Shown here piece after piece: positions 29,455 through 51,854 of a stretch of 64,000 nucleotides of DNA. Position numbers and translations under genes: made by a program. A model generated the notes under the pieces. It was not told the origin of the DNA. It ran no database searches and saw nothing but the letters and a program-made list of their open reading frames with translations. The DNA is from Nocardioidaceae bacterium SCSIO 66511 (lineage in GTDB: Bacteria > Actinomycetota > Actinomycetes > Propionibacteriales > Nocardioidaceae), in the NCBI GenBank assembly GCA_023100825.1, contig CP095846.1:4340001-4404000 (forward strand). The letters run 5' to 3'. Numbering within the stretch: position 1 is the first letter of the stretch; every line of letters starts with the position of its first letter.

Positions 29455-30429
29455 TCAGAACGACCGCGTGCGGTCGACGGCATCGAGGATCCGGTCGAGA
29501 TCGGGGAGATACTCCTCCTCGATCCGGCTCGCTGGGTACGGCGTGTCGAAGCCGCCGACGCGCAACACCGGGGCTTCCAGCGAGTAGAAGCAGTTCTCGG
29601 TGATCCGGGCTGCGACCTCGGCGCCGATGCCGAGGTTGGCGTGCGCCTCGTGCACGACGACGGCCCGACCGGTCTTTCGTACCGATTCGTAGACGGGGCC
29701 CATGTCGAGCGGCGAGAGCGTACGAAGGTCGATGACCTCGAGGCTCGTGCCGTCCTGCTCGGCCGTCGCCGCCGACTGGAGCGCGGTCTTCATCGTCGGT
29801 CCGTACGCGAGCACCGTGGCATCGGTGCCCTCACGTACGACTCGCGACGAGAACAGCGGGGCGGGCGTCGCCGTGACGTCGATCTCGGCCTTCTCCCAGT
29901 AGCGTGCCTTCGGCTCCAGGAAGATCACCGGGTCGTCGGCCTTGATCGCCTGCTGGATCATGAAATACGCGTCGACGGGATTCGAGCACGCAACGACCTT
30001 CAAGCCCGGCGTGTGCGCGAACTGCGCCTCCGGACTCTCCGAGTGGTGCTCGACACCGCCGAACCCGCCGCCGAACGGGATGCGCACGACGATGGGCATC
30101 GGCACCTTGCCCTTGCTGCGGAAGTGGATCTTCGCGACCTGGCTGACGATCTGGTCGTACGCCGGGTAGACGAAGCCGTCGAACTGGATCTCGCACACCG
30201 GCCGATATCCGCGCATGGCGAGGCCGACGGCGGTGCCGAGAATTCCCGACTCCGCAAGCGGAGTGTCGATGACTCGGTCTTCACCGAAGTCCTTCTGCAG
30301 GCCGTCGGTCACCCGGAAGACACCGCCCAGCTTGCCGACGTCCTCCCCCATCACGAGGACCTTCGCGTCGTCCTCCATCGAGGCCCGCAAGCCGTTGGTG
30401 ATCGCCTTGCTCAATGTCGTCTGGCTCAT
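29455..30429 (-). CDS. bkdB: branched-chain 2-oxoacid dehydrogenase E1 beta subunit
   Basis: A 324-residue transketolase-like subunit. MGEDVGKLGGVFRVTDGL (about 27-44) and DTPLAESGILGTAVGLAMRG are hallmarks of E1beta. IPFGGGFGGVEHHSESPE carries the HHSES motif that distinguishes branched-chain from pyruvate E1beta, and the C-terminal fold includes VVVHEAHANLGIGAEVAA. With the alpha subunit it decarboxylates 2-oxoisovalerate and related oxoacids with thiamine diphosphate. Its ATG overlaps the alpha-subunit stop (ATGA), so the two subunits are translationally coupled for 1:1 assembly. Confidence 0.93.
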   Translation of the reverse strand: MSQTTLSKAITNGLRASMEDDAKVLVMGEDVGKLGGVFRVTDGLQKDFGEDRVIDTPLAESGILGTAVGLAMRGYRPVCEIQFDGFVYPAYDQIVSQVAKIHFRSKGKVPMPIVVRIPFGGGFGGVEHHSESPEAQFAHTPGLKVVACSNPVDAYFMIQQAIKADDPVIFLEPKARYWEKAEIDVTATPAPLFSSRVVREGTDATVLAYGPTMKTALQSAATAEQDGTSLEVIDLRTLSPLDMGPVYESVRKTGRAVVVHEAHANLGIGAEVAARITENCFYSLEAPVLRVGGFDTPYPASRIEEEYLPDLDRILDAVDRTRSF

Positions 30430-31610
30430 GAGACGGCTCCCTGCTTCTCCGCGTCCTCGAATGAGGCGAGGTACTCGGCGTAGCCGTCGCGCTGCGCGGC
30501 GAGCTCCTCGGTCTGCTCTGCGTACACGTTGTCGAAGATGTCGAGGATCTGCGGCTCGGGAAGCGCTCGGCAGCCCGTACGCAGGCGCTTGGCGACCTCG
30601 TCGGCCTCGGCCTCGACGTCGGCGAAGAAGCTCTCCTCGACCCCGGCATGGCGGGTGAGGTACGCGCGTACTCGCTCGATCGGATCCTTCAGCTTCCAGT
30701 GCTCGAGGTCGGTCGACAACCGATAGCGGGTCGGATCGTCGGTGGTCGTGTGCGCACCCATGCGGTAGGTGTACGCCTCTACGAAGGTGGGCCCGCTGCC
30801 CTCTCGCGCGCGTTGCAGCGCGGCCTGGGTCACGGCGTGGCACGCCAGCACGTCGTTGCCGTCAACGCGTACGCCTGGGAAACCGAAGCCGAGAGCTCGT
30901 TGATACAGCGGGATGCGCGTCTGCCGCTCGATCGGCTCGGAGATCGCCCACTGGTTGTTCTGGCAGAAGAACACGACCGGCGCCTGCGAGACGCTTGCCC
31001 AGATGAACGACTCGTTCACGTCGCCCTGGCTGGTCGCGCCGTCGCCGAAGTACGCGATGGTCGCCGCATCGCGGCCGTGGTCACCGGTGCCGACAACGCC
31101 GTCGCGGAGCTGGCCCATCGCGTAGCCGGTCGCGTGCAACGCCTGTGCACCGATCACGATCGTGTAGAGCGCGAAGTTGTTGTCGGCGGGGTTCCAGTTG
31201 CCGTGGTCGACTCCGCGAAAGAGCCCGAGCAGTGCGAGCGGATCGACTCCTCGGCACCACGCGACGCCGTGCTCGCGGTAGGTGGGGAACGCCATGTCCT
31301 GAGGCTCGAGCGCGCGACCGGAGCCGATCTGAGCGGCCTCCTGGCCGAGGAGCTGTGCCCAGATGCCGAGCTCGCCTTGGCGCTGCAGTGAGGTGGCCTC
31401 GACGTCGATGCGTCGGGTCAGCACCAGATCGCGGAAGAAGCCCTTGATGGTCTCGTCGTCGCCGTCGAAGGCGAACTCGTTGTGCTCGACGCGCTCACCT
31501 TCGGGGGTCAGCAGCTGCACGAGGTCGTGCTGATCATCGGGCGACGCGGGTCCGAAAACGGCACCGAGCTTCTCGGCGCCAGCCTCGGGTGCGGGCAGGT
31601 CGTTGCTCAT
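30426..31610 (-). CDS. bkdA: branched-chain 2-oxoacid dehydrogenase E1 alpha subunit
   Basis: A 394-residue TPP-dependent E1alpha. The TPP/Mg motif runs from GDGATSQGDVNESF to CQNNQWAIS, with the N in the expected place. PTYREHGVAWCRG is the conserved substrate-side loop, and YRMGAHTTTDDPTRYR is the phosphorylation-loop-like region that orders on TPP binding. AGGAGTGCCT precedes ATG 31610; longer in-frame forms lack ribosome sites. It is the first gene of the bkd operon. Products supply branched acyl-CoA starters for iso/anteiso fatty acids and catabolism of Val, Leu and Ile. An exact CRP-type palindrome lies about 100 bases upstream. Confidence 0.93.
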   Translation of the reverse strand: MSNDLPAPEAGAEKLGAVFGPASPDDQHDLVQLLTPEGERVEHNEFAFDGDDETIKGFFRDLVLTRRIDVEATSLQRQGELGIWAQLLGQEAAQIGSGRALEPQDMAFPTYREHGVAWCRGVDPLALLGLFRGVDHGNWNPADNNFALYTIVIGAQALHATGYAMGQLRDGVVGTGDHGRDAATIAYFGDGATSQGDVNESFIWASVSQAPVVFFCQNNQWAISEPIERQTRIPLYQRALGFGFPGVRVDGNDVLACHAVTQAALQRAREGSGPTFVEAYTYRMGAHTTTDDPTRYRLSTDLEHWKLKDPIERVRAYLTRHAGVEESFFADVEAEADEVAKRLRTGCRALPEPQILDIFDNVYAEQTEELAAQRDGYAEYLASFEDAEKQGAVS

Positions 31611-31711
31611 AGGCACTCCTGGTGTCATGGCCTGCGGGGTCTCCGCAGCTGGCGGGAGTATCCACACTCCGCCTCAGCTATGGGTGTTTGCGTACGTGCG
31701 GCGCGTGGTGC

Positions 31712-31727: not shown

Positions 31728-31879
31728 ACATGCTCAGGCTATCGTCCGCGTGGCCGCAGACAAAACTCGGGCCTACCTGAACCCGTCCGAACGTTCGGTG
31801 TGTTCGATACCCGTGCGGTCGTGGGTCAGGCGGCCATTCCGGCGAAGACGATCGCTTCGTTGTTCGGTTTCGGCGTCAC

Positions 31880-32025
31880 TCCCGTACCGGTGGTCGCTGG
31901 TGTACCAGCGCGCATGGAAACCGGTCACTGTGCACGGCGTACTTGCCGTGCAGGGTGGAGTGTTGCCGCGCAAAGCGCGGAGGAAGTGGTGGTTCACCAT
32001 GTCTACTTGGTGAAGCACCACCGGC
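31880..32025 (-). repeat. hairpin-rich intergenic element, copy 1
   Basis: Read on the minus strand, this stretch aligns with 51499-51612. Its hairpins in that order are 32021-32008/31999-31986 (13 of 14 pairs, loop AGTAGACA), 31980-31975/31971-31966, 31952-31945/31938-31931 (TGCACGGC against GCCGTGCA) and 31910-31905/31900-31895. The first hairpin core TTCACCA/TGGTGAA and the block GACCGGTT are shared with copy 2. No convincing reading frame is conserved between the copies. It lies in the gap between bkdA and the subtilase. Confidence 0.7.
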
Positions 32026-32254
32026 CGACCCCGCATATTCAAGCCGGAACGAGCAAGCCGGCAGCGAGCCCCAGCCCGAAACTGCCGATCCCGCGTCGCC
32101 GCGTCTTTTCCCAACCGGACGAAGCGGGAAGGCCGACAACGAACGGAACTCGAGCGGACGGATGTCGCCGTAGAACTACGGAACGCCGACAGCGCACCTC
32201 AACCGAAGCGGCGGGTTGTCGCACCGTCAGGCCCTACTCTCGGACGCAGAAATG

Positions 32255-32337: not shown

Positions 32338-33543
32338 CTAGAAGTCCTGCGGGTAGTTCAGCAGCAGGTTCGCCGTACCCTCGGGCAGACCCTGGATCGC
32401 GTCCGGGACTGCGCCGTCGACGAGGCCCTGGCTGACCGCGGCCGGGTCGGCGTCGGGGTTCGCCTCGAGGTACAGCGCGGCGACTCCGGCAACGTGCGGC
32501 GAGGCCATCGACGTACCGCTGATCGTGTTCGTGGCGTCGTCGCCACCGATCCAGTCCGACGTGATGTCGGTGCCCGGAGCGGCCAGGTCGACGCAGGAAC
32601 CGCCGTTCGTGAAGTCCGACGCCGAATCGTCGTCGGCAGTCGACGCAACCGTCAGCGCGTCCGGAACCGCCGCTGGCGACGACTCACACGCATCCGCGCC
32701 GTAGTCGTTGCCGGCCGCGACCGCGTACGTCACGCCCGCCTCGATCGAGCCCGCAACCGCGTCGTCGAGGGCCGGATCTGCCGGACCGCCGAGGCTCATG
32801 TTCGCGACCGACGGACCACTGGCGTTCTCGGTGACCCAGTCGATGCCCTTGACGACACCCTCGGTCGAACCGCTGCCGTTCGCGTCGAGTACGCGTACGG
32901 GCTCGATTGCGACCTCCTTCGCGAGTCCGTGCTCGGTGCCGCCGACCGTGCCGGCAACGTGCGTGCCGTGCCCGTTGGCGTCATCCGTGCCACCGTCGAC
33001 CGCGGAGAATCCTTCGCCGACCCGTCCCTCGAAGTCCTGGTGCGTGGCGTTGATGCCGGTGTCGATGATGTAGGCGGTTACGCCCGCACCGGTCTCGTTG
33101 TAGGTGTACGAATCGTCGGCCGGCAGTGCCTCCTGGTCGACCCGGTCGAGACCCCAGCTCGGAGTCGGCGTCTGGGTCTCGGTGGCGTGGACCTCCTGGT
33201 TTGCCTGGACGTACGCGACGCGCGGATCGGCGCGCATCTCGTCTACTGCGGACTTGCTCATCGACGCCGAGAAGCCAGTGAGCGCGCTCTTGTACTCCTC
33301 GCGCACCGTGGCGCCGGCGTCGGCGGCGATCGAACTCACGGAGTTCCGTGCGGCGATCCCGGCGTCGTCCTTCAGCACCACGATGTACTTACCCGGAATG
33401 GCCGACTCGCTCTTCGCTCCGTACAGCGGAGCCATCGCGTCCGAGCTCGGTGACGACGGAGCGGCGTGGGCAACCATCGGGGTTGCCAATGCGAGTGCCG
33501 AAACCGAACCGATCGCTACCCTGGTAATGACCTTTGTGAACAT
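32338..33543 (-). CDS. secreted subtilisin-like serine protease (S8, proteinase K-like)
   Basis: A 401-residue preproenzyme. A signal peptide spans about residues 1-28 (cleavage after AHA). An I9 inhibitor propeptide follows at about 50-121 (GKYIVVLKDD to VAYVQANQEV), and the S8 domain starts near residue 128 (PSWGLDRVDQ). Catalytic residues are Asp161 (IIDTGIN), His192 (GHGTHVAG), oxyanion Asn279 (AAGND) and Ser345 (GTSMASPH). Two Cys (C286 in GADACESS and C317 in GGSCVDL) may form a disulfide as in proteinase K relatives. A general extracellular protease for nutrition is likely. It stands alone with its own terminator; a regulator-like gene lies upstream on the same strand. Confidence 0.95.
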   Translation of the reverse strand: MFTKVITRVAIGSVSALALATPMVAHAAPSSPSSDAMAPLYGAKSESAIPGKYIVVLKDDAGIAARNSVSSIAADAGATVREEYKSALTGFSASMSKSAVDEMRADPRVAYVQANQEVHATETQTPTPSWGLDRVDQEALPADDSYTYNETGAGVTAYIIDTGINATHQDFEGRVGEGFSAVDGGTDDANGHGTHVAGTVGGTEHGLAKEVAIEPVRVLDANGSGSTEGVVKGIDWVTENASGPSVANMSLGGPADPALDDAVAGSIEAGVTYAVAAGNDYGADACESSPAAVPDALTVASTADDDSASDFTNGGSCVDLAAPGTDITSDWIGGDDATNTISGTSMASPHVAGVAALYLEANPDADPAAVSQGLVDGAVPDAIQGLPEGTANLLLNYPQDF

Positions 33544-50010: not shown

Positions 50011-51461
50011 TCGAGATGGGTGAACGCGAACCGGACACTGCCCCCGCGGCATCCCAACCCGACCGCTCGACGGGCCTCGTACCCAGCCTGCGCGAGCAGG
50101 TATCCGACCGGGTTTCGCTCGCGGCCCGGATCACCCTGCTCACAACGGTGGCCGTCGGTCTCACGATCGCTGCCGTCGGGGTGACGATCTTCCTGACCGT
50201 ACGCACCGAGGTCAACCACTCGCTGGACACCTCACTGGTCAAACGTGCGCACGCCGTCGCCGACTCGCCGGAGGCCGCGGAGCAAATGCGCACGGGCGAG
50301 GTGCCGGGCGCGTTGGCCGCCGCCGACATCCTGATCGCACTCATCACACCCGATGGCACGTGGGCGATGGACGACCTCGGCCCCGCCCTCGGCGACCCGG
50401 AGCGAGCGGTCGCCAACGGCGTCAACGCCGAGTCGATCCGCACCGTGACGATCTACGACCGGCCGTACCGCGTGGTCGCCGTACAGTCCGGACACGGCAC
50501 CTCCGTCGTCGTCGCGCAGTCGATGCAGTCGAGTGCGCGTACGCTCGACCGGCTCGAGATCGCATTGTGGGTCGTCGGAGCGGCGGGCGTCATCGTCGCC
50601 GGCATCGCGGGGTGGCTGGTCGCCACCAACTCTCTGCGCCCCGTACGCCGGCTCACCCGTGCGGCCGAGCGGGTCGCCCGCACCGAGCAGCTCACGCCAA
50701 TCGAGGTGACCGGCGACGACGAGCTCGCGCGGCTCACCATCGCCTTCAACTCGATGCTCACGTCTCTCGATGCGTCCAAGCAACGCCAACGCCAGCTGGT
50801 GGCAGACGCCGGACACGAGCTCCGTACGCCGCTCACCAGTTTGCGTACGAACATCGAGCTGCTCAGCCAGGCCGAAGCGAAGGGCGGACTCGCGCCACGC
50901 GCACGCGGCGAGCTGATGGCCGACGTACGCGCTCAGATCGGCGAGCTGACCACCCTCGTCGGCGATCTCGTCGAGCTCGCCCGCGACACGTCGCCGAAGA
51001 GCGCGCCGGAGCCGATCGACCTGTCGGAGATCCTGATGAACTGCGTGCAGCGCGTACGTCTGCGCGCGCCGGGTATCGAGTTCAACGTCGAAAGCGAGCC
51101 TTGGGTGGTCGTCGGCGACGGCCAGTTGCTCGAGCGGGCCGTGACCAATCTGCTCGACAATGCCGCGAAGTGGAGCCCCCCGCTGGGCACCGTGACCGTA
51201 CGACTGCGCGACGGAGTCCTCACCGTGGCCGACACCGGCCCCGGCATCAACGAAGAGGACCTCCCGCATGTGTTCGAGCGGTTCTACCGTTCCCGCGAGG
51301 CGCGGATGCTGCCCGGGTCCGGCCTCGGCCTGGCAATCGTCGCGCAGGCGGCCGGCCGGCACGGCGGTGCAGTCACCGCACGTCGCGCCCCGTCGGGTGG
51401 CGCGCTGATGACGCTCACGATTCCCGGCAAGCCGCCGAGCCAGGTGCCCGACGACAGCTGA
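50007..51461 (+). CDS. mprB: sensor histidine kinase, MprB-like
   Basis: A 484-residue membrane kinase. The first membrane helix (about 40-66) and second (about 183-206) enclose a 115-residue extracytoplasmic sensor. HAMP follows ([18 protein letters not shown]), then HisKA with phospho-acceptor His270 in [10 protein letters not shown]. The ATPase domain has [10 protein letters not shown] (N box), DTGPGI (G1) and GSGLGLAIV (G2). It starts with GTG overlapping the regulator's TGA. A structured non-coding stretch of nearly 400 bases separates it from htrA. It presumably senses misfolded or damaged envelope protein. Confidence 0.9.
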
Positions 51462-51498
51462 TCGCTGGCTGCCACTCATGGCCGGCGGTTCGGACGGC

Positions 51499-51612
51499 GC
51501 CCGGTGGTGCTTCACCAAGTAAGCATGGTGAAGTACCGCTTTGCACGGCAGGAACACCGTGCAAAGCGACTGGTTGCCGCGCCCGTTGGTACGTACGTGG
51601 CCACCGTGGCAC
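51499..51612 (+). repeat. hairpin-rich intergenic element, copy 2
   Basis: Homologous to 31880-32025 read in reverse. Hairpin 1 pairs 51506-51517 with 51526-51537 (core TTCACCA/TGGTGAA, loop AGTAAGCA; copy 1 has loop AGTAGACA). Hairpin 2 pairs 51538-51548 with 51557-51567 (GCTTTGCACGG/CCGTGCAAAGC, 11 perfect pairs). Shared single-stranded blocks include GACTGGTT and GTTGGTAC. A competing GGTG/CACC stem could form with the left arm of hairpin 1. No protein frame is conserved between the copies. Confidence 0.7.
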
Positions 51613-51659
51613 AAGTCCTCTCACTCGTACCCGTCGCGCGTCGTCGGCGCCGACCGTGG

Positions 51660-51691
51660 TGCGGTTTGCCCTGGTACCAAGGCAAACCGCA
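51660..51691 (+). other. perfect 11-bp hairpin
   Basis: TGCGGTTTGCC (51660-51670) pairs with GGCAAACCGCA (51681-51691). The ten-base loop itself contains the palindrome TGGTACCA. It could end mprAB transcription or be part of the larger structured region. Confidence 0.65.
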
Positions 51692-51707
51692 GCCCGCAGC
51701 CGTACGC

Positions 51708-51770
51708 CCCAAGGCAAATGGTCACTGTCCCAAGGGACACTCCCCGTGGACAGTGACAACCGCCCTTGGG
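51708..51770 (+). other. nested hairpin upstream of htrA
   Basis: GTCACTGTCC (51721-51730) pairs with GGACAGTGAC (51748-51757), enclosed by CCCAAGG (51708-51714) with CCTTGGG (51764-51770). With the preceding hairpins it completes the structured part of the 393-base gap between mprB and htrA; nothing else gene-like is seen in that gap apart from the repeats at 51814. Confidence 0.6.
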
Positions 51771-51813
51771 AAGTAGGACGGAGTTCCGCAGATCTTCAGA
51801 CATGTCACAATCG

Positions 51814-51833
51814 CATCTCAGGCACATCTCAGC
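51814..51833. promoter_or_regulatory. direct repeats, candidate MprA-like response regulator site
   Basis: CATCTCAGG (51814-51822) and CATCTCAGC (51825-51833) repeat with an 11-base period, one helical turn, as OmpR-family dimers require. They lie 22 bases before the htrA start and downstream of the hairpins, so htrA probably has its own regulated promoter. Confidence 0.6.
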
Positions 51834-51854
51834 CACGCGGCACATCCTTGACGT

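Follow-up and report, generated by a model that had tools for sequence, protein, structure and literature searches.

A REP-like double-hairpin repeat of Nocardioidaceae, represented by a hairpin cluster between mprB and htrA

REP elements rank among the most frequent repeats in bacteria, and RAYT transposases are linked to their dispersal. BOX elements of Streptococcus pneumoniae are modular, with a variable number of internal units. Two REP classes are named after their tags, GTAG and CGTC; the survey of the former lists no Actinobacteria, and that of the latter reports five phyla, Actinobacteria not among them (PMC3733652). In a survey of Y1 enzymes, the Actinobacteridae have the IS200 subclass only (PMC6006769). 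A further kind of palindrome, clustered hairpins past stop codons, has been proposed to depend less on a U-tract for terminating transcription (PMC8355165). We found no description of the double-hairpin element reported here in the open-access literature on actinobacterial REP-like repeats. The element was encountered in a 64,000-nucleotide stretch of the Nocardioidaceae bacterium SCSIO 66511 genome (the window; positions 4,340,001 to 4,404,000 of contig CP095846.1), where it lies between the sensor kinase gene mprB and htrA.

The hairpin cluster between mprB and htrA

Positions 51499-51775 of the window contain four strong stems, H1 to H4 (Table 1), as had been predicted from the sequence, and the boundaries proposed at that time match those of the conserved core almost exactly. 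The 51450-51800 segment folds at -174 kcal/mol compared with -141.6 for its shuffles (z -5.7), and none of 100 shuffles equalled this value. The hairpins are real and well beyond chance, but they are not particular to the mprB-htrA gap. A further pairing, CCCAAGG with CCTTGGG, follows H4. The GGTG/CACC pairing, once put forward as an alternative to H1, does exist, but it encloses the consensus fold as a stem (columns 1-6 with 98-103) rather than forming a clear rival fold. H3-H4 is a second copy of the H1-H2 module, because the general covariance model (R3), which was made from other loci, also matches this half. Two independent models built from the two halves of the hairpin region found homologues in one and the same family. 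A 90-aa ORF (51504-51776) was ruled out as a gene since it is not common to the copies, whose indels are not multiples of three, which agrees with the earlier view that the region holds no credible gene. Rfam 15, searched at gathering and lax thresholds, gave no relevant match to the hairpin region.

Table 1. Features of the composite repeat in the window; matches are to models R2 and R3
Feature	Positions	Strand	Description	Evidence
Composite repeat	51503-51774	+	Retained core with two modules; lacks the inverted arms that other copies carry	
Module 1	51506-51593		H1-H2-tail	
H1	51506-51537	+	Module 1; 12 pairs, one of them G-U	R3 match 51507-51569, 70.4 bits
H2	51537-51568	+	Module 1; 12/12 pairs	
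Tail position	51572-51593	+	Module 1; GGTTGCCGCGCCCGTTGGTACG; arm repeat degenerate in this copy	
Module 2	51660-51773		H3-H4-tail	
H3	51660-51691	+	Module 2; equivalent of H1	R2 match 51660-51773, 75.2 bits
Linker	51692-51720	+	Contains the H3 3' arm a second time, CAAGGCAAAtGG; a short form of module 2 is without the linker	Sequence and alignments
H4	51721-51757	+	Module 2; equivalent of H2	R3 match 51661-51756, E 4.6e-8
Tail	51758-51773	+	Module 2; ends CCCTTGGGAAG; like the H4 3' arm	Comparison by eye
Second composite copy	31862-32230	-	Extra hairpin between H1 and H2	Locus L112

With its strong fold, and with a sensor kinase gene on one side and htrA on the other, the cluster would suit a structured RNA that controls htrA in cis as an attenuator, ligand sensor or processing site, which was among the functions first proposed. 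We regard this as extremely improbable: 68 other loci carry the same element, Rfam offers no match, and the sister species (G001) has an mprB-htrA gap without the element, in which the sequence resumes at a conserved block upstream of htrA. Here, that block (51790-51846) intervenes between the element and htrA. Likewise, no element could be recognised ahead of the htrA homologue in the other genera inspected. A strong fold near a regulatory gene can, as a caution, be a repeat.

The block at 51790-51846 features direct CTCAG-type repeats (ATCTTCAG, ATCTCAG and ATCTCAG) upstream of htrA; the sister species has conserved it, and some other genera have a similar block. It is likely to be a response-regulator operator of htrA. 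Since this operator-like block separates htrA from the hairpins, the latter probably precede the htrA promoter.

Copies, distribution and covariation

A search with 51490-51780 gave at least 60 matches in the 4.61-Mb single-contig genome, from the best 40 of 188 candidates scored, while patterns for the conserved core and for the arms matched 36 and 64 times, respectively, and reversed-pattern controls not at all. When pattern and search matches were merged, the composite repeat was found to be dispersed over at least 69 loci (L048-L116); this is a lower bound, as model searches identified further copies, including those at 77229, 338137 and 452379. The predicted recurrence of the element 20 kb away therefore stands, as the minus-strand copy at locus L112, but the element is far from a two-copy one. 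The L112 copy has a dehydrogenase E1-alpha-like gene on one side (30426-31667) and a subtilisin-like protease gene on the other (32338-33543), both on the minus strand; these functions were judged by eye from sequence. No match was found in a plasmid collection.

All-against-all comparison showed one repeat per locus, ranging from 126 to 824 bp but mostly 400-650, in which most cores are flanked by inverted arms composed of one to five ~75-nt tandem units per side. With their arms included, full elements in this genome are 400-820-bp foldbacks, whereas the copy between mprB and htrA has lost the long inverted arms and consists of the core only. Such large foldbacks could indicate a conventional MITE, whose long inverted arms would be transposon ends carrying the hairpins as passengers and whose mover would be a DDE-type transposase. 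This is very unlikely, given that the hairpin pair is the conserved part and that the bare module is dispersed alone in the inspected copies from the sister species and other genera, where no inverted arms were seen. In addition, element ends were ragged in the copies compared.

Related elements were identified throughout the family. A covariance model built from H1-H2 (R1) matched 39 of 197 family genomes from 14 of 26 genera, and R3 matched 146 of 245 family genomes from 21 of 26 genera, leaving 99 genomes without a match; many family genomes have at least 10 R3 matches each. In a phylum sample of 396 genomes, repeated R3 matches were restricted to two family members, and the only matches outside the family were three single weak ones that were unconvincing by eye. 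The R1 matches in other genera share a scheme in which H1 (GCGGTTTACCnGG / CCnGGTAAACCGC) is followed by H2 (CACTTnnCnnGG / CCnnGnnAAGTG) and then by the tail. In the sister species, the H1-H2 part corresponds to a ~93-nt, three-hairpin element with many copies (84 matches, both strands counted). Homologues of H3-H4 were found in another genus, in the MAG Nocardioidaceae bacterium MGR_bin191, one of whose loci (L125) has the same sequence as locus L033 of genome G015.

Some elements depart from this scheme. At L194, L211, L217, L236 and L254, all from other genera, an inverted H1 replaces the arm-repeating tail to give a symmetric H1-H2-H1' element, which is reminiscent of REPIN pairs. A related arrangement was found by exact-pattern match in Aeromicrobium (L119:2190-2295), where a third hairpin is placed between two GCGGTTTACC hairpins.

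Covariation was assessed across genera using a gapless alignment of 31 sequences, which were retrieved with R1, a model that favours its own pairs; in this alignment, 89.2% of cells were paired, compared with 69.6% in shuffles and ~40% with slid partners. Cells changed on both sides numbered 144 versus 44 in shuffles, and none of 500 shuffles was as good. The covariance-model search called for in the original prediction therefore returned homologues with compensatory changes, with both-side changes at 22 of 24 pairs. Pairs that are not part of R1 also featured such changes: at columns 36-57, 30 of the 31 sequences were paired and both-side changes numbered 13, while columns 12-19 and 35-58 had 13 and 6, respectively. 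Identity over 63 nt was 83% within a genome and 55% between genomes. In many copies, a tail located 7 nt past H2 duplicates the H2 3' arm, and this tail is closer to the H2 arm of its own genome (8.3/12) than to the arms of other genomes (7.2/12; p 1e-4, one element per genome).

Within the SCSIO 66511 genome, copy-by-copy covariation was weak for the hairpins (z about 2) and left-right co-variation of the arms within copies was not detected, so single copies seem to drift after insertion. A strand test on H1 and H2 in this genome gave 147 G-U versus 39 A-C cells on the plus strand, an imbalance dominated by three columns. Across genera, the same test was near symmetric (42 G-U versus 34 A-C), which is easier to reconcile with a DNA hairpin, or with a function on both strands, than with an RNA specific to one strand, and which also counts against an RNA acting on htrA.

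Placement, turnover and the terminator question

Convergent gene pairs flank 28 of 68 elements in the genome (p 0.007) and 25 of 37 elements in other genera (p 9e-6), compared with 5 of 34 element-free gaps, a small baseline comprising gaps >80 bp, with crude gene calls from a caller trained on the SCSIO 66511 genome only. Divergent placement was observed for 1 of 37 elements in other genera and for 9 of 68 in the genome, the latter not significantly low, while in the sister species most copies follow co-directional genes (10 of 18). Many elements lie 2-30 nt from stop codons.

This placement raises the alternative that the elements are host terminators foremost, a lineage-specific bidirectional hairpin design that spread by recombination or duplication and was selected without a mobile phase. 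The elements often occupy the few bases separating two convergent stop codons, and the proposal that clustered hairpins need a U-tract less (PMC8355165) would accommodate the sequence of the hairpin region, where no T run follows a G+C-rich stem between 51300 and 52000, contrary to the classical criterion for an intrinsic terminator. The terminator array suggested at the outset is accordingly plausible by position but is without a U-tract. Hairpin-cluster intrinsic terminators likewise have adjacent hairpins right behind stop codons (PMC8355165), whereas the copies of this element are all homologous and constitute one repeat family. The missing U-tract, the genome-wide rewriting of stem letters and the absence of copy-level covariation within the genome are further difficulties for selected terminators.

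Comparison with the sister species also speaks against this alternative, since elements have been gained or lost at the sites compared. The sister-species gap between mprB and htrA is one such empty site, and in the reverse case a sister-species element (L171) is missing from the orthologous site here (L097). No element position is shared between the 18 distinct sister-species loci and the 69 loci in this genome. Overall, we consider host terminators without a mobile phase to be unlikely, while the dispersed copies and empty sites provide good support for the mobile palindromic element that was among the initial suggestions.

Relation to known repeat systems

The reading that we favour, and hold to be probable, is that of a RAYT-less, REP-like palindromic repeat that is spread by a putative factor and probably serves as a bidirectional 3'-end hairpin or terminator, with two modules in tandem between mprB and htrA. 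Its unit, ~85 nt in total, combines two hairpins of ~12 bp (H1 and H2) with a tail repeating the H2 3' arm, and every carrier Nocardioidaceae genome has a sequence version of its own, present in several to many copies at the 3' ends of genes. We infer that these copies spread as non-autonomous mobile palindromes, and that the putative factor would recognise the folded element, either single-stranded or as a cruciform. Hairpin pairs behind genes may then be tolerated, or kept as bidirectional terminators or mRNA 3'-end stabilisers. The observations behind this reading are the homology and kept pairing across genera, the greater likeness of copies within than between genomes, the placement at 3' ends and between convergent genes, and the empty sites between sister species; the negative Y1 search, the ragged element ends, the missing U-tract and the weak copy-by-copy covariation weigh against it. 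In the SCSIO 66511 genome, modules would have been linked and framed by inverted arms of tandem units to generate the 400-820-bp foldbacks, with the arms lost from the copy upstream of htrA.

A more tentative proposal, which we would put forward as possible rather than probable, is that these are family-wide double-hairpin palindromes, free of a RAYT and of either REP tag, that are moved as folded DNA by a putative factor reading structure and a matching tail instead of a fixed sequence; the stem letters would be rewritten in concert in each genome while pairing is kept. The element forms an actinobacterial class: it occurs in 21 of the 26 genera sampled from one family, its pairs covary strongly between genera, and no Y1 enzyme was found in the 39 genomes searched. 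The presence of 146 carriers alongside 99 genomes without a match in a single family makes phylogenetic profiling for a putative mobiliser directly possible, and this contrast allows the question to be posed of whether palindromes at 3' ends act as selfish elements, as terminators or in both ways.

By general description, the modularity of BOX elements can be likened to that of the arms, although BOX elements come from an unrelated host and the core of the present element is a covarying hairpin pair. GTAG REPs are tagged and RAYT-associated, whereas this element is a fixed two-hairpin unit with an arm-repeating tail, GTAG was present at the palindrome end in only 2 of 42 elements, and a transposase search covering PF01797 (Y1 transposase, RAYT/IS200) was negative in all 39 genomes, 32 of which are R3 carriers, with positive controls. 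CGTC-tagged REPs are likewise palindromic, 3'-located and without a known dedicated transposase (PMC3733652), but the element has no consistent CGTC tag (8 of 42 elements, at no fixed position) and a longer two-hairpin unit. In the broad sense of REP, its copies are dispersed extragenic palindromes, many per genome, located mainly between convergent or co-directional genes and downstream of coding regions. REPs, REPINs and BIMEs are similarly small palindromes with many copies, genome-specific versions and inverted pairs, which are found where convergent genes meet and at other positions downstream of genes (PMC3733652). The double-hairpin element therefore behaves like a REP, yet it stands outside both named classes, GTAG and CGTC.
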